From contig JAKVAZ010000001.1 in assembly GCA_022447225.1 (NCBI GenBank), positions 403,824 through 467,823 on the forward strand: a stretch of DNA of 64,000 bases, written 5' to 3'. This DNA is from Fuerstiella sp. GTDB lineage: Bacteria; Planctomycetota; Planctomycetia; Planctomycetales; Planctomycetaceae. Position 1 is the stretch's first letter; each line of letters starts with the position of its first letter. Both the position numbers and the translations under genes were made by a program. Positions 1 to 6,992 of this stretch are shown in pieces. The notes under the pieces were generated by a model that did not search any database, was not told the origin of the DNA, and saw only the letters and a program-made list of their open reading frames with translations.

Positions 1-515
1 GGTCAGATTACCGATCTGTCACTTGACGATTTTCCAACGTTGAATTCGATTGTGGACTTCTTCGTCGGCCAGGCGGGGTCCGGGGCCGCAGCGGAACCGC
101 TCCCCGTTCCATCAGGCCATACGCCACCTTCCACGATGGCCCCTGTCGCTCCTGCGATTCAGGCACCGACTGCTCCGACTGTTGCTATGCCGGCGATTCC
201 GGCAGTGGCAGTACCTGTGACTCCAATGGTCCCCGTAGTTGAGACTGCACCCAAACCGGTTCCGGCAATACCGGTGGCATCAACCGACGTGAGTGTGTCG
301 AAAGATGAACTGATGACATTCGCAATTGCTTTTGTCGTCGAACAGACCGGCTACCCGGAAGAGCTGGTTGAACCGAATGCCGACCTGGAGGCCGACCTGG
401 GTATCGACAGCATTCGCAAAGCGCAGCTGCTTGGCGAAATTGCAGAACACTATCAGATGACAGGTCTGGCAGGTCAGATCACCGATCTGTCACTGGATGA
501 TTTTCCGACGCTGGA
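1..515 (+). repeat. Tandem carrier-protein repeat, 471-bp period
   Basis: Bases 1-44 and 472-515 match at 38 of 44 positions, and all six differences are silent or conservative. They encode the last helices of two successive ACP domains (GQITDLSLDDFPTL in both). The 471-bp period (157 codons) is one ACP plus linker. More copies may lie upstream of the window. Confidence 0.85.
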
Positions 516-3500
516 GGCAATTACCGATTTTTTTTTCGCAGCTGCAGGACGCACAACTGAACACGGAGCAGACACAGTAATCGACGATGTTGCGGCACCC
601 GGACTCGATACATCAACAACCAAAAATACCGTCCCCGCAGTTGCGGGTTCGGCGGATCTGACATCTGTCGATCGACTGCCGGAGAACGATCGGATCATGC
701 AGCGGTATATTGTCCGCTCCATACCCGAATCCCTTCGTGAGGCTTCCGATGCCGTCGGGACCACGTTTGCCGGTAAGGTCGTGATTCTGGGAGAAGATCG
801 TGATGCTCAGGCACTCGTCCAACGGTTGCAGTCTGCAGGCAGTCTGGTCGAGATCCTTCCGGCATCCATTCATGCTCAATCAGCGGTTGCAGCGTTTGAA
901 ACAAGCTGGAAACAACAGGCTGTTGATCATTTGATTGTAATGACTTCAAACGGTGATCAGCCGGCCGACTGGGATACACTGCGTGATCAACAACTTCTGG
1001 TTCCGTACTTTGTGATCCAGAAATGGGTGCAACTCCGAACACAACTTTACGGAAAAGATTCTCCACCGGCAGGAAATCTGGCGGCAATCACACGTCTGGG
1101 TGGCGATTTTGGCATTGGCGGTCGTATTGGCAACGTTTCGGGTGCAGGACTCGCCGGGCTATTCAAAGCAATTATTCGGGAGCACGCTGAGCTCAATGCA
1201 ACGGTTCTCGACGTTCCGGCTGACGAACCCGTACGACTTGTGATCGATGCTTTGTGTCGGGAAGCGGCGGCCGCTGGACCGCACGTGGAAATCGGCTGCA
1301 TTCGCGGCAAACGGCATCGCCTGCACATGATCCCGCAGCCCGCTTCCGGCATCTGTCCGTCCGACGTCAGTCTGGCCGGACCGTGGGTCGTCACGGGCGG
1401 GGCTCGTGGCATCACTGCGCGTATCGCAGCAGCACTCGGTCGTTCATCCGGTGTTCGCCTGCATTTGGTTGGTCGCAGTTCGGAATCGGAAGTGGATCCA
1501 GCCTGGGTTGCGTTGGATGAAACCGGACTGGGAGAACTGAAGAAGGACGTGATGAGAAAGGCGGCAGCTGAAAACCGTAAACCAATCGACGCCTGGAATT
1601 CATTAAACAGCAAAATTACTCTGGCAAAATCGCTCCGGAAACTTCGTGAACAGGGATTGGATGTAACATACCACGCATGTGATGTGAGTCAGCGTGACTC
1701 TGTTGGCAATATGCTGCAGGCTGTTCGGCAAATGCACGGGCCAATTACCGGAGTCATTCACGGTGCCGGTGTCGAAGCGGCTGCTCGTTTTGAACGCAAG
1801 CAGGCCGATTCGGTGCGTCTGACAGTGACATCGAAAGTTGACGGGGCTCGCTGGCTGTGGGAACACACTGCGAACGACGACCTGTCGTACTTTGTGTGCT
1901 TCGGTTCCACCAGTGGCCGATTCGGTGGACTTGGTCAGACTGATTATTCTATGGCGTCCGATCTGCTGTGTCGTATGGGTTGGCAGTTTGGGATTGAGCG
2001 ACCTGCCTGCCGAACGGTTGGCTTCCACTGGCCGCCATGGGGTGAAGTGGGCATGGCTGCCCGACCGGAAAGTCGCTTTGCACTGGAATCTGCCGGGTTG
2101 AAATTCGTTGAACCGGATGAAGGTGTGTCACATTTACTGGATGAACTGGATATCCGGTCCAGTGAGGGCGAAGTGGCGGTGGTCGATCGAGTCTGGGGGA
2201 TGTCCGAAGAAGACGAACTTCAGGACACGAAGTTCATTGAACTGGCACACAGCACGAAATCGCGGGTTAGAAACGCGGCATTTGTCGACGCAATCATCCG
2301 GCAGTCTGAAAATTCTCTGACGACGGAGGTCGTTTTTGATCCGCTGACCCATCCGATGCTTCGTGATCATAAAGTAGACGGCATTGCCGTGGTTCCCGGG
2401 ACAGTGATGCTGGAAACATGCCAGCAGGCTGCGGGTTTGCTGGATCGCGAACGTCTGATTATCGGTGTACGAGATTATCAGATTCTCAACGGTGTGCGAT
2501 GTCGCAGTGGTAAACAGCGACTGGTGGTTCATGTTGTTCGAGAGACCGATGGTGTGATCCGGTGTGAAGTTACGGGTGCATTTACGGACCAGGAGGGTTG
2601 CATCGTTGATCCTGCTCGTGTGTATGCATCAGCAACAATTCTGACGGGGGCTGCACCCGTTGCCGGAACTGTTTCCAAAGTACCGCTACCTGAGAAGTGG
2701 GAAATATTACAGCAAGCCGCCGGGCCGAATGACTTCAGGTCGAATCATGTCGGTACGGTATACCACGGACCATCACTCGGGCGTCTGCGAGGTATTGCCA
2801 ACATCGAAGGCAGCAGCGGGTGGTTCCGGGTCGCCGATCCGGACGGGACCTGTACTCCGGAGGGAATGGCTCGACCGGCTGTCCTGGACGCTTTCCTGCA
2901 GGGCATCGACATTATCCTGCACAGGTCTCGCGGTACCAGCCAGTTACCAACTGTTATCGGTCAGGCAGATCTGCACACGGATCAGCTGGACCAGGATGAA
3001 CTGATTGTCCGTGTTGCCATGACACATGAAGCCGACGATACCAGCTACTGGACGATCGACTGCTTTTCACCGGCCGGTATTCCCGTTGTCAGCATGAAGG
3101 ACGTTGAGTTCCGCAGAATGAAGTCTTCGCCGGCGACCGTACCGGTCGGTGGTGTCCGACCGGTACCTGTCGCACCGCCAGGCACGCCCTCGGTGGAAAA
3201 GATCATTCGACCAATGATGCTGCGAGCCGGTATCAATGTTGACGGCAATGCGGCCGCAGTTGCAGTTCCCGTGAATCCGCTGACGGATCGATTTTTATCC
3301 GAACACAAACTGCACAACGTACCGCTTTTGCCGGCCGTCATGGCCATCGAAATCATGGCCGAGGCAGGTGAAGTTCTTGCTGAGCCTGGAGAACGAACAA
3401 TTGCGATCCGTGACATGCAGATCCTGAGCGGAATCAAATGCACGGGGACGAATGTCCGGACACTGGTGGTTCGCTGTCTGCGATCGGGGAATGATGTCAC

Positions 3501-4071
3501 CGTACAGATGTTCAAGTCTCCGGAAGCAGAAAAACCTTCGATGACCGCAACCATCGCACTGGGGATGGAGACGCTGCCGATGGAGTCCGGATTCTCTCAG
3601 CCGCATGGCGAATTCATGGATTATCCGTATCCGAAGGATGCGCCGATTCAGCACGGACCCTCGTTCCAGACACTCCGGAAGCTAGCACCGTGGAGATTCC
3701 TGGGCACAGCTCATCTGCAGATTGGCGAGTCCTGTCTGGCAGATGACTTCCCGGCAGAAGCACAGTGGGTGATCGATCCAGCGATTCTGGACGGGGCCCT
3801 CGTGGGATGTGGATCAGATGCCTGGTTGTATTATGGATTTACTCCGGAATTACCGCATTCCTTCGATGAAATTATCGTGGGAAAAATGATCAGACCCCGC
3901 GAAGTCTGTACGGCTGAATTCAAATGCTGCACAACATTTAAGGAAGACACCACAACCTACAACATTGTTATGCAGGATTCGAAGAATCGAACGTTTATGC
4001 AGGTGAAAGGATTCTCTCTGAAGCGACTTATGCCGGTGAAACCAGGCTGGTTAACCATGGGAGGGTACTAA
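1..4071 (+). CDS. Multidomain polyketide/PUFA-type synthase, 3' part (ACP-ACP-KR-DH-DH)
   Basis: The reading frame is open from base 1, so the 5' end, presumably with ketosynthase and acyltransferase, lies outside the window. It begins inside a carrier-protein domain. A Pro/Ala-rich linker (about nt 70-290) leads to a full carrier domain (about nt 300-535) with its phosphopantetheine serine in GIDSI (codon 409-411). A ketoreductase follows (about nt 1378-2060): TGGARGI cofactor loop, serine in GSTSG, tyrosine at 1945-1947; the residue four after the tyrosine is Ser, where PKS ketoreductases usually have Asn. Two double-hotdog dehydratases come next. The first (about 2330-3120) has HKVDGIAVVP and a C-half DAFLQ. 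The second (about 3220-4050) has HKLHNVPLLP and DGALV, so Gly and Gln of the motifs are lost and it may be weak or structural. The architecture resembles PfaA or HglE-type iterative synthases. Confidence 0.88.
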   Translation, partial: GQITDLSLDDFPTLNSIVDFFVGQAGSGAAAEPLPVPSGHTPPSTMAPVAPAIQAPTAPTVAMPAIPAVAVPVTPMVPVVETAPKPVPAIPVASTDVSVSKDELMTFAIAFVVEQTGYPEELVEPNADLEADLGIDSIRKAQLLGEIAEHYQMTGLAGQITDLSLDDFPTLEAITDFFFAAAGRTTEHGADTVIDDVAAPGLDTSTTKNTVPAVAGSADLTSVDRLPENDRIMQRYIVRSIPESLREASDAVGTTFAGKVVILGEDRDAQALVQRLQSAGSLVEILPASIHAQSAVAAFETSWKQQAVDHLIVMTSNGDQPADWDTLRDQQLLVPYFVIQKWVQLRTQLYGKDSPPAGNLAAITRLGGDFGIGGRIGNVSGAGLAGLFKAIIREHAELNATVLDVPADEPVRLVIDALCREAAAAGPHVEIGCIRGKRHRLHMIPQPASGICPSDVSLAGPWVVTGGARGITARIAAALGRSSGVRLHLVGRSSESEVDPAWVALDETGLGELKKDVMRKAAAENRKPIDAWNSLNSKITLAKSLRKLREQGLDVTYHACDVSQRDSVGNMLQAVRQMHGPITGVIHGAGVEAAARFERKQADSVRLTVTSKVDGARWLWEHTANDDLSYFVCFGSTSGRFGGLGQTDYSMASDLLCRMGWQFGIERPACRTVGFHWPPWGEVGMAARPESRFALESAGLKFVEPDEGVSHLLDELDIRSSEGEVAVVDRVWGMSEEDELQDTKFIELAHSTKSRVRNAAFVDAIIRQSENSLTTEVVFDPLTHPMLRDHKVDGIAVVPGTVMLETCQQAAGLLDRERLIIGVRDYQILNGVRCRSGKQRLVVHVVRETDGVIRCEVTGAFTDQEGCIVDPARVYASATILTGAAPVAGTVSKVPLPEKWEILQQAAGPNDFRSNHVGTVYHGPSLGRLRGIANIEGSSGWFRVADPDGTCTPEGMARPAVLDAFLQGIDIILHRSRGTSQLPTVIGQADLHTDQLDQDELIVRVAMTHEADDTSYWTIDCFSPAGIPVVSMKDVEFRRMKSSPATVPVGGVRPVPVAPPGTPSVEKIIRPMMLRAGINVDGNAAAVAVPVNPLTDRFLSEHKLHNVPLLPAVMAIEIMAEAGEVLAEPGERTIAIRDMQILSGIKCTGTNVRTLVVRCLRSGNDVTVQMFKSPEAEKPSMTATIALGMETLPMESGFSQPHGEFMDYPYPKDAPIQHGPSFQTLRKLAPWRFLGTAHLQIGESCLADDFPAEAQWVIDPAILDGALVGCGSDAWLYYGFTPELPHSFDEIIVGKMIRPREVCTAEFKCCTTFKEDTTTYNIVMQDSKNRTFMQVKGFSLKRLMPVKPGWLTMGGY

Positions 4072-4241
4072 TTGCCGGTTTCAAACTTTTGCAGGTGAGA
4101 ATTATCAGTCGCTGAAATCCGGGGATGACCGAACTCTGTTCGGACCGGCTGAAGGTCTGGAAATTTCCTGCCGTTGTGAATGAGAGTGTCAGTCCTGTCA
4201 ATTCAATTGCTTTGCTTGTCTATTTTGTTATGTCATTTTCA

Positions 4242-4934
4242 ATGTTCACCAGTCCAGCCGCAGTCGACGCCGTTCAGGTGTGGCTGTCTTACGGGTTTCA
4301 GGATGTCGATCATTCTGCGTCCGGTCTGACAGCATCGGAACGGGAACTGGCAGAACGATTGACGTCGAACCCGCGTCGCCGATCATTCGAAATGGGGCGC
4401 CGACTCGGTAAGCGGGCAGTACAGGAGTTCACAGAACCGTCTGGTATCGATGCTGAACGGGTTGAAATACTGTCTGAGGACCCGGCTGCCATTACCTCGC
4501 GACCGGTAATCTGCGAGGACGGCACTCCCGTGGATTTGAAGATCTCGATCACTCACCTGGATCAGACAGTTGCCGTAGCAGTTGCCGACGGCGAACACGT
4601 CATAGGTATTGACCTGGCACGTATTCAACGGCCGTCTTCCGCTTTCAGAGATATCTGGATGAAGACTCATGAGCAGTATCAGGTCTCTCAAAGTGAGGAT
4701 GTGGCACTCACTGCAACCATGAACTGGTCTGCACGAGAGGCGGCTTTCAAGGCAACGGGTATTGACAGTCACTTTCGTCCTGCACACTGGTCCGTAGCGT
4801 TTGAAGGTGATCGAGCGACATGTTTCTACCGTGGACAGCAACAGCCGGTACAACTGAGCTTTTATCGAATTCATCAGGAAATGTTGCTGACTGTGGCCGG
4901 TGACGGAACCGATGTCACGTTTCGCACCAGGTAA
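4242..4934 (+). CDS. Sfp-type 4'-phosphopantetheinyl transferase
   Basis: This enzyme would move phosphopantetheine from CoA onto the carrier-protein serine of the upstream synthase. The family signature is clear: GIDLARI (magnesium-binding Asp) and, about 40 residues on, WSAREAAFKA (magnesium-binding Glu and catalytic Lys). The N-terminal half has the usual SxxERELAERL and RRRSFEMGRRLGKRAV stretches. The frame is open from an ATG at 4125 (269 aa), but the extra 39 residues look unlike the family. An ATG at 4242 gives 230 aa, the usual size, so it was chosen; neither start has a good Shine-Dalgarno. The gene lies about 170 bp after the synthase, on the same strand. Its position points to a dedicated, HetI-like role. 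Confidence 0.87.
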   Translation: MFTSPAAVDAVQVWLSYGFQDVDHSASGLTASERELAERLTSNPRRRSFEMGRRLGKRAVQEFTEPSGIDAERVEILSEDPAAITSRPVICEDGTPVDLKISITHLDQTVAVAVADGEHVIGIDLARIQRPSSAFRDIWMKTHEQYQVSQSEDVALTATMNWSAREAAFKATGIDSHFRPAHWSVAFEGDRATCFYRGQQQPVQLSFYRIHQEMLLTVAGDGTDVTFRTR

Positions 4935-4981
4935 ACCCAAACACAATACAAATTCATTTTATCTAATCGGGAACTCTGACA

Positions 4982-5746
4982 ATGATCGACCTGAACGGCC
5001 AGACGGCGCTCGTGACGGGCAGTTCACGTGGAATCGGAAAAGCAACAGCAATCCGACTGGCAGAAGCCGGCGCTGACCTTGTACTGAACTATGCGAAGTC
5101 AAGGGCCGCTGCAGAAATGGTTGCGGAATCAATCGCTCAAATGGGGCGGAACGTTCTCGTCGTCAAAGCAGATGTTTCGGCCCGCGACGACGTTGACAGT
5201 ATGATTGAAGCGGTCGACAGCGAGTTCGGCAAGCTGGACATTATTGTCAGCAATGCGGCTTCCGGCGGGTTTCGTGACCTAATGAAATCCACTGAGACGC
5301 AGTTTGATCAGACCATGAGTACCAATGTGAAGCCACTGATTTCACTTGTCCAGGCCGCCCTGCCGCTGTTCAGCAGGAGCGCCGGCTTCTCGCGAGTGAT
5401 CGGTTTGAGTAGTCACGGTTCACACAGGGCACTGCCCTCCTATGGACTCATCGGCGGATCAAAAGCGGCGCTGGAAAGCGTGGCTCGTCATCTGGCTCTG
5501 GAACTGGGTGACCATGATATTCGTGTGAACATTGTTCAGGCGGGCCTGGTAGAAACAGATTCGGCCCGAATGATTCCGGGTGTCGAGGAAATGTTTGCCC
5601 ACGTGGAGTCCAGAACGTGTGTTGGTTCGCGTCGCCTTCAGCCCGAAGATGTGGCGAACGTGGTCACATATCTTGCCAGCCCGATGAGTAACATGATTCA
5701 GGGACAGACGATCATTGTCGATGGCGGCGCGACAGTGTTTGCATAG
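4982..5746 (+). CDS. FabL-like enoyl-ACP reductase (SDR family)
   Basis: Short-chain dehydrogenase fold of 254 aa with a GSSRGIGKATAIRLAEAG cofactor loop, SNAASGG, and the C-terminal MIQGQTIIVDGG. The active site reads SYGLIGGSK, a Tyr-x6-Lys spacing, which is the mark of enoyl-ACP reductases such as Bacillus FabL rather than the Tyr-x3-Lys of ketoreductases. The upstream synthase shows KR and DH but no ER in the visible part, so this protein could supply the enoyl reduction in trans. It lies 47 bp after the PPTase gene, with GGAA about seven bases before the ATG. A house-keeping FabL role is the main alternative. Confidence 0.82.
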   Translation: MIDLNGQTALVTGSSRGIGKATAIRLAEAGADLVLNYAKSRAAAEMVAESIAQMGRNVLVVKADVSARDDVDSMIEAVDSEFGKLDIIVSNAASGGFRDLMKSTETQFDQTMSTNVKPLISLVQAALPLFSRSAGFSRVIGLSSHGSHRALPSYGLIGGSKAALESVARHLALELGDHDIRVNIVQAGLVETDSARMIPGVEEMFAHVESRTCVGSRRLQPEDVANVVTYLASPMSNMIQGQTIIVDGGATVFA

Positions 5747-5873
5747 CCGGTATGAATGACCCGTCAGTGCGATTCCGATGGTGAGGCATGTGTCCGTTAC
5801 GACTTCGGGATCGAATGAAACAATCATGTTTGACTGACAGATTTCGGCCGTACGAGACCAGGGACCTCAGTTC

Positions 5874-6992
5874 ATGAGTTGTATTCTTTTGACCGGAGCC
5901 ACGGGGCTGCTTGGTCGCTATATCATTCGCGATCTGGTTCTTCAGGGACATTCACTGGCTGTGCTGGTACGACCGGGCAGAACGCTTTCGGCGATCGAAC
6001 GCGTTGAAGAAGTGATGAAGCACTGGGAGCCGACTACCGGTCGCCTGCCGACACCCAAAGTCCTTGAAGGGAATATCACGCAGCCGAATTTGGGCCTGTG
6101 TGAAGATGATCTTAAATGGGCGAGCGGCAACTGTTCGGCCGTCATACACTGCGCGGCCAGCCTGAAATTTCAGCTCGCGGGTGATGAACCATGGAATTCC
6201 AATCTCAACGGGACACGTAACGTTGTCGAATTTTGCGAAGGAATCGGGATACCACAACTGTTTTATATTTCCACAGCATATGTCTGCGGCAAGGTTAATA
6301 CTGTTGCCTACGAAACACCCGTGCCCGGGGATACGGAACCTCGCAACGTTTACGAAGCAAGCAAGCGGCAGGCCGAACAACTGGTTCTGAGCGCTGATCT
6401 GCAGATGCCACCTACGATTTTGAGGCCCAGCATCATTGTCGGGGATTCAAAAACCGGTTACACGAGTACATTCCATGGTCCGTATCTGCCGCTGCGGCTG
6501 TCGATGTCGATGCTGGCTCCCGCTGCTGAAGCCACAGGCATTCGCATTGCTCCCGATGCTTTGAAAATTTTCAAGATGATGGGACTGGAAGGTGGAGAAC
6601 GCAAGAATCTGGTTACTGTCGACTGGGTCAGTCGAGGAATCACTCATGTGATCAACTCAACTGAACTTCACGGTCAAATTTACCACCTGACAACAGACCA
6701 TCCGATGTCTGTACTGTCGCTGACAAAGACAACTGTAGAGTTTCTGGATGAAATGTACGGCTTTGAGGATACGGATGTCGTAGAGTTTGATGACCAGATG
6801 GAACAGTTCTTTACCGCTCAAATGGGGGTCTATCGGGAATACTGGAGGGATGACCCGGACTTCGATGCCACGAACCGAACTCTGGCAATGCCCGATGATC
6901 CTCCACCGGTCATCGATGATGCGATGCTGCGAATTATGTTTCAGTACGTCTGGGACTACGATCAGCAGCAACGAGCCGTTCCGGCCGGCTGA
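5874..6992 (+). CDS. Thioester-reductase-like NAD(P)-binding protein
   Basis: Extended SDR of 372 aa, of the NAD_binding_4 (Lys2/CarA/HglB terminal reductase) type. TGATGLLGRYIIRDL is the nucleotide loop, VIHCAASLKF and YISTAYVCG are typical of the family, and VYEASKRQAE carries the catalytic Tyr-x3-Lys. Such domains reduce a carrier-bound acyl thioester to an aldehyde or alcohol and so release the chain. In heterocyst-glycolipid clusters the same activity is the C-terminal domain of HglB; here it stands alone, 127 bp after the enoyl reductase. I infer that it ends the pathway of the upstream synthase. A sugar epimerase is less likely given the sequence around the active site. Confidence 0.8.
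   Translation: MSCILLTGATGLLGRYIIRDLVLQGHSLAVLVRPGRTLSAIERVEEVMKHWEPTTGRLPTPKVLEGNITQPNLGLCEDDLKWASGNCSAVIHCAASLKFQLAGDEPWNSNLNGTRNVVEFCEGIGIPQLFYISTAYVCGKVNTVAYETPVPGDTEPRNVYEASKRQAEQLVLSADLQMPPTILRPSIIVGDSKTGYTSTFHGPYLPLRLSMSMLAPAAEATGIRIAPDALKIFKMMGLEGGERKNLVTVDWVSRGITHVINSTELHGQIYHLTTDHPMSVLSLTKTTVEFLDEMYGFEDTDVVEFDDQMEQFFTAQMGVYREYWRDDPDFDATNRTLAMPDDPPPVIDDAMLRIMFQYVWDYDQQQRAVPAG

Follow-up and report, generated by a model that had tools for sequence, protein, structure and literature searches.

The stretch of DNA analyzed here (the window) comprises 64,000 nucleotides of the Fuerstiella sp. genome G000 (97% complete, 1% contamination) and corresponds to positions 403824-467823 of contig C1 (608,954 bp). 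Across its left edge lies a four-gene operon which we hold, with reasonable confidence, to be an iterative secondary-lipid synthase system that releases a long, largely saturated chain in the form of an aldehyde or alcohol. It consists of four co-directional open reading frames (ORFs) on the forward strand, separated by 53, 47 and 127 bp: the 3′ part of a type I iterative synthase gene (1-4071, cut by the window edge; codons 1755-3110), and genes for an Sfp-type phosphopantetheinyl transferase (PPTase; 4125-4934; Pfam ACPS, true start perhaps slightly downstream), for a FabL-type short-chain dehydrogenase/reductase (SDR; 4982-5746) that is a probable in-trans reductase of enoyl-acyl carrier protein (ACP), and for a stand-alone thioester reductase of 372 aa (TR; 5874-6992). 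An earlier note, made from the letters of this DNA, had placed PPTase, SDR and TR on one strand with gaps of 170 bp or less and had ascribed the genes to a planctomycete with a lipid-type iterative synthase; the gene order was confirmed, and origin and synthase type were supported.

In the mechanism that we propose, the PPTase would load the three tandem ACPs of the synthase, the acyltransferase (AT) would supply extender units, probably malonyl, and the first ketosynthase (KS1) would condense them in cis with a catalytically dead second ketosynthase (KS2) acting as chain-length factor (CLF). The ketoreductase (KR) and the first dehydratase (DH1), perhaps together with the second (DH2), would process each β-carbon, the separate FabL-type SDR would reduce the enoyl step in trans to give a largely saturated long chain, and the TR would detach the chain from the ACP to give an aldehyde or, via a second hydride transfer, a primary alcohol. 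A reduced long-chain aldehyde or alcohol is the most likely product, and it might serve in the membrane or envelope.

Domain architecture of the synthase

The synthase gene is truncated by the window. Read together with its 5′ flank it begins with a GTG start codon at position 398562 of the contig, 5.26 kb before the window edge, and runs on the + strand to 407894 (L005:4563-13895), giving a protein of 3,110 aa from 9.3 kb of DNA with the domain order KS1-KS2-AT-ACP-ACP-ACP-KR-DH1-DH2. KS1 occupies residues 7-474, KS2 extends from residue 494 and the AT, with a GHSYG motif, covers residues 1060-1334; the ACPs are marked by the motifs LGVDSI at residue 1592 and LGIDSI at residues 1730 and 1887. 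The earlier note had proposed to read this flank for KS and AT, and both are present (two KS, one AT, three ACPs) instead of the flank lacking them that it had named as refutation. Inside the window, with all features on the + strand, Pfam matched one whole ACP, a KR and two DHs in the ORF at 1-4071. The third ACP lies at 301-513 (LGIDSI motif at nt 397), the KR region at 691-2148 (Pfam KR 1384-2040, synthase residues 2216-2434; GGARG at 1396, catalytic-type Tyr within a TDYSMASD motif at 1939), DH1 at 2251-3138 (HxxxGxxxxP at 2368 with its His at residue 2544, DxxxQ at 2884) and DH2 at 3181-4038 (His at 3304, residue 2856, in HKLHNVPLLP). Of the ACP-ACP-KR-DH-DH end described before, the KR, both DHs and one ACP thus stand, and its first 'ACP' is a mere tail of the second ACP (nt 1-63, codons 1755-1775). 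The number of ACP repeats is three in the window genome versus two in the related loci L026 and L027, and the copies are 73–81% identical in DNA. DH1 of the window synthase shares ∼40–50% identity with that of the sister species L026, against ∼70–95% for the neighbouring KS, AT and DH2 parts, and DH1 of L026 is closer to that of L027 (54–62%) than to that of the window synthase. By sequence comparison, DH1 in the window lineage is replaced or fast-changing.

The gene following the TR, which encodes a tRNA-dihydrouridine synthase, is on the opposite strand, and upstream of the synthase ∼1.5 kb separate it from a divergent metal ABC transporter operon, so that the synthase operon consists of four genes only. 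The four-gene set is real and far beyond chance because it recurs in related genomes.

Probable ketosynthase pairing, enoyl reduction and chain release

Catalytic residues of both KS domains were checked in 44 aligned planctomycete sequences (alignment numbering). KS1 keeps Cys209, His341 and His381 in 44/44 rows. KS2 has lost the first His as well as the Cys, which is replaced by Asp, Glu or another residue, in all 44, and retains the second His in 26. An AlphaFold2 model of KS1-KS2 built on this alignment (pLDDT 91.4, pTM 0.94) found as its top PDB match in Foldseek the KS-CLF crystal structure of PfaC (6riw), with TM values of 0.77/0.79 over both domains; the remaining listed chains gave query-normalised TM values of at most 0.43. 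In phmmer, 6riw was collinear with synthase residues 7-883. VIA-align on KS1-KS2 lists mostly single KS chains, as one domain fills the list, and the pair match therefore rests on Foldseek. The CLF of the zeamine synthase was identified through a like residue loss, with Cys replaced by Glu and His by Tyr (PMC3547906). Because the model matches 6riw over its whole length, KS2 is probably a CLF-like partner of KS1 in cis, and we infer that it would set the chain length.

We then compared 64 KS domains in a tree that included 19 planctomycete KS1 and 19 KS2 domains as well as references for PfaA, PfaC-KS, PfaC-CLF, types P, M and O, modular polyketide synthases (PKS) and FabF. Planctomycete KS1 forms one clade and KS2 another, each with starred support of 100 and apart from all reference groups. 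The PfaA and PfaC references were taken from Persicobacter, Streptomyces, Rhodococcus and Azospirillum plasmids, and the labels type M and type O are our reading of plasmid loci, not original strains. PfaC and PfaA queries of plasmid records matched no HglE sequence, and in the KS comparison HglE is represented by PfaA, its published relative. Several cyanobacterial and Agrobacterium plasmid matches were rejected as Pfa/Hgl references since they are nonribosomal peptide synthetase/PKS clusters. When a sister position of KS1 was held in an approximately unbiased (AU) test, none was rejected: p was 0.49 for PfaC-KS, 0.26 for PfaA-like types, 0.083 for PfaA alone and 0.54 for KS2. The CLF-like pairing in the planctomycete synthase would either have arisen independently or mark a very ancient branch of the polyunsaturated fatty acid (PUFA)/heterocyst-lipid synthases; hgl islands have been placed near PUFA synthases (PMC11804610, PMC3098273).

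The SDR (Pfam SDR) carries the Tyr-x6-Lys motif YGLIGGSK at residues 154-161. Its sole PDB match at E ≤ 1e-40 is Bacillus subtilis FabL (3oic, 1.9e-58), with the motif aligned, which bears out the earlier assignment as a FabL-type enoyl reductase. As the genome encodes a separate FabI-like reductase elsewhere (C2, 302 bits), the FabL-type enzyme is probably dedicated to the synthase, on whose ACPs it would act. Among 392 genomes of the phylum, a KS2 match below 1e-80 occurs in 14 and a FabL ortholog (E < 1e-80) in 13, all of them within the 14 synthase carriers and none among the 378 others (Fisher p = 2e-23 by genome and 5e-13 by genus, both ignoring shared ancestry). Weaker FabL-like matches (near 1e-62, 45–48% identity) were seen in ten genomes, all from a single distant planctomycete family, f65 (e.g. 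G288 and G236), for which no KS2 match at E ≤ 1e-30 is listed; there the gene may be the enoyl reductase of fatty-acid synthesis.

The TR matches Pfam NAD_binding_4 with 144.6 bits (cut-off 20.1) and shows the Tyr-x3-Lys motif YEASK at residue 160. It has no ACP domain and is hence a stand-alone enzyme, as had been claimed. Its model (pLDDT 90.1) resembles thioester reductases most: the top fold match was the R domain of myxalamid MxaA (Z 34.2, rmsd 3.1 over 328 residues), followed by DPW, a reductase of rice (Z 33.4, rmsd 2.6 over 340 residues), with sugar-nucleotide enzymes trailing near Z 28. Since the MxaA R domain and DPW both yield alcohols, an alcohol is by analogy somewhat more likely than an aldehyde as the TR product. 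In a TR tree, one branch with starred support of 98 splits synthase-linked TRs from TRs without a synthase.

Distribution among planctomycetes and alternative explanations

Using the KS1-KS2 alignment as query we scanned 84,980 species genomes. Of 198 stretches that were confirmed, the best 80 correspond to 78 loci, which all appear to be planctomycete, with two records titled merely 'bacterium'; since these are the best 80 of 198, rarer carriers outside the planctomycetes may exist. Carriers among them include Blastopirellula marina DSM 3645, Bythopirellula polymerisocia, Rhodopirellula, Stieleria and a Gimesia metagenome-assembled genome (MAG), and the nearest locus is that of Fuerstiella sp. 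ALOHA_ZT_14. Cultured carriers of the synthase family are the two named strains and species as well as Rhodopirellula sp. SM50 and Stieleria sedimenti. Records titled 'Candidatus Kuenenia stuttgartiensis' (L105, L110, L125, L128, L131 and L136) also carry the synthase; where tested they cluster with Planctomycetia/Planctomycetaceae MAGs in the KS and TR trees, and on these sequences the MAG titles are probably wrong.

Gene linkage was counted in 23 loci that were picked by KS similarity alone and carry no less than 2.5 kb of sequence past the synthase. The related loci mostly lie on MAG contigs, and the survey by BLAST with the window's own domains misses divergent ones. The FabL-type SDR is linked in 22/23 loci, the TR in 15 (8 upstream, 8 downstream, one locus in both) and the PPTase in at least 11, a lower bound as PPTases are divergent. 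Genes for Rieske oxygenases were found in 8/23 loci by BLAST; they stand behind the PPTase gene at L029:6102-7262, L101:21375-22535 and L077:18715-21134 (two genes), in L029 and L077 before the FabL-type SDR gene. These oxygenases could hydroxylate the lipid. Related synthases are adjoined by a sulfotransferase gene in the Gimesia MAG (L123:14454-15578), by a gene for a GH3-type adenylating enzyme (L069:19983-21065) and, in Bythopirellula, by a run of AMP ligase, metallo-beta-lactamase and MMPL transporter genes (L079:3670-8343).

A core gene set is thus kept across many planctomycete families: synthase and FabL-type reductase are fixed, and PPTase and TR are usually present. We tentatively suggest, with somewhat less than even confidence, a lineage of lipid synthases, peculiar to planctomycetes and with KS and CLF on one chain, which recruited a FabL-type reductase in place of PfaD, uses reductive release and makes undescribed long-chain aldehyde- or alcohol-derived lipids, varied among families by Rieske oxygenases and sulfotransferases. 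From planctomycete genomes, clusters of 'type I PKS' or 'hglE-KS', the latter called by antiSMASH, have often been published without products (e.g. PMC13190842), and one such gene set is here tied into a coherent lipid-synthase system. Our literature search on planctomycete long-chain hydroxy lipids or Fuerstiella lipids gave nothing usable. The set, which recurs in many planctomycetes, is a directly testable source of an uncharacterised bacterial lipid.

Several observations weigh against the mechanism proposed above. DH2 has a degenerate motif in which the His is kept, the Gly is lost and DxxxV replaces DxxxQ/H. The SDR scores 274.5 bits with the FabL model NF005975 of NCBIfam (cut-off 328), for which reason we name it FabL-type and not FabL, and the TR scores 115.3 bits with TIGR01746 (cut-off 213). 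The best KS tree sets KS1 beside modular PKS with non-starred support of 90, and none of the four other deep placements was rejected by AU test. Finally, 8/23 loci show no TR in the flank covered, and reductive release is therefore not common to all of them.

We considered four other explanations, taken here in falling order of probability. The absence of the TR from those loci, together with its presence without a synthase in other planctomycetes, would fit a TR that is a fellow traveller acting on some other acyl-ACP, with the chain leaving the synthase by transfer or hydrolysis. We consider this unlikely, as the well-supported branch in the TR tree sets synthase-linked TRs against stand-alone ones and the TR gene is co-directional, 127 bp behind that of the SDR. 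The synthase could also make a polyunsaturated chain like PUFA synthases, with enoyl reduction in some cycles and release as an acid or to hydrocarbon synthesis. Tandem ACPs, KS-CLF pairing and tandem DHs are as in Pfa, and the PfaA model TIGR02813 matches with 785 bits; however, this score is below the cut-off of 1010, PfaD (TIGR02814) is without a match anywhere in the genome and a FabL-type reductase is linked in nearly all loci counted, which makes such a product improbable. An OleD-like gene at C15 adjoins a Cys/Met-metabolism gene and not an ole cluster, and the hydrocarbon link was therefore rejected.

Little weight falls on the proposal that the product is not a structural lipid but a diffusible, bioactive polyketide such as a reduced polyketide aldehyde. 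The position of KS1 beside modular PKS and the Rieske oxygenase, sulfotransferase or GH3-like genes in some related loci speak for it. However, the synthase is a single iterative module that combines KS-CLF pairing with tandem ACPs, the four-gene operon contains no gene for transport, resistance or regulation, no other type I KS was found elsewhere in the Fuerstiella genome, and many planctomycete families retain the core set. A true heterocyst-glycolipid-type system, making a long-chain diol that is later glycosylated and exported, is very improbable: it shares the KS-CLF-AT order of HglC and the presence of PPTase, SDR and TR, but no glycosyltransferase or DevBCA-type exporter was found among the flanking genes tested, the TR lacks an ACP, the KS clades are separate and the operon is far below seven hgl genes.

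The flanking genes that were run through Pfam include Mur ligases, ArsM, Dus and CBS in addition to the metal ABC transporter. In the divergent operon, which is for Zn/Mn uptake, a metal ABC permease is fused to an iron-dependent-repressor (DtxR/MntR-type) metal-binding domain (L004:8876-10240, − strand).

Comparison with known systems

With the Pfa synthases (PfaA/PfaC; types A, B and L of PMC3098273) the iterative lipid-synthase system proposed here shares tandem ACPs (three, LG[VI]DSI), a one-chain KS-CLF as in 6riw, tandem DHs, a linked PPTase and the iterative logic. The KS-CLF likeness is one of residues and, by Foldseek, of fold, with or without common descent with PfaC. In contrast to Pfa, a single fused chain KS-CLF-AT-ACP-KR-DH-DH is found, a FabL-type SDR replaces PfaD, release would be reductive and the KS clades are separate.

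HglB is an ACP-thioester reductase fusion, and the TR found here has no ACP. The hgl systems (type F) are otherwise alike in PPTase, SDR and thioester reductase, in the long reduced chain expected and in the N-terminal KS-CLF-AT order of HglC (PMC3098273), a unit which here is fused to ACP-KR-DH-DH. The 5′ flank, which the earlier note had also suggested reading for HglC- and HglD-like genes, shows this order and no separate HglC or HglD genes. An hgl island is defined as a cluster with seven or more of the 19 hgl genes of Anabaena (PMC11804610), whereas the operon holds four genes, without a glycosyltransferase or exporter, and in the tree its KS domains fall outside the PfaA clade (AU p 0.083 for KS1 as sister to PfaA). 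The earlier note had pointed to a like gene set in heterocyst-glycolipid loci; membership in that family is not supported.

Closest in layout is zeamine Zmn10-Zmn14, in which an SDR of 255 aa and a stand-alone TR of 412 aa come directly after a Pfa-like synthase, and in whose CLF, as in KS2, the Cys and first His are replaced (PMC3547906). However, zeamine has PfaD, aminotransferase and NRPS partners, none of which are present here, and its SDR is described as a ketoreductase (PMC3547906). The type R secondary-lipid synthase resembles ours as a single large protein with KS, malonyl-acyltransferase (MAT), CLF, several ACPs and KR and a PPTase downstream (PMC3098273). Its order KS-MAT-CLF-ACP(3–6)-KR differs in that the CLF follows the MAT but precedes the AT here, and DH-DH, FabL and TR are absent from its description (PMC3098273). 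Bacillus FabL is like the SDR in sequence and in Tyr-x6-Lys, but the SDR is linked to a type I synthase beside a separate FabI-like enzyme. Given the PfaA score, the genome without PfaD, the four-gene operon and the unfused TR, the operon lies outside the Pfa and hgl families on the features tested, and by its sequence it is PUFA/heterocyst-lipid/zeamine-like in predicted mechanism.

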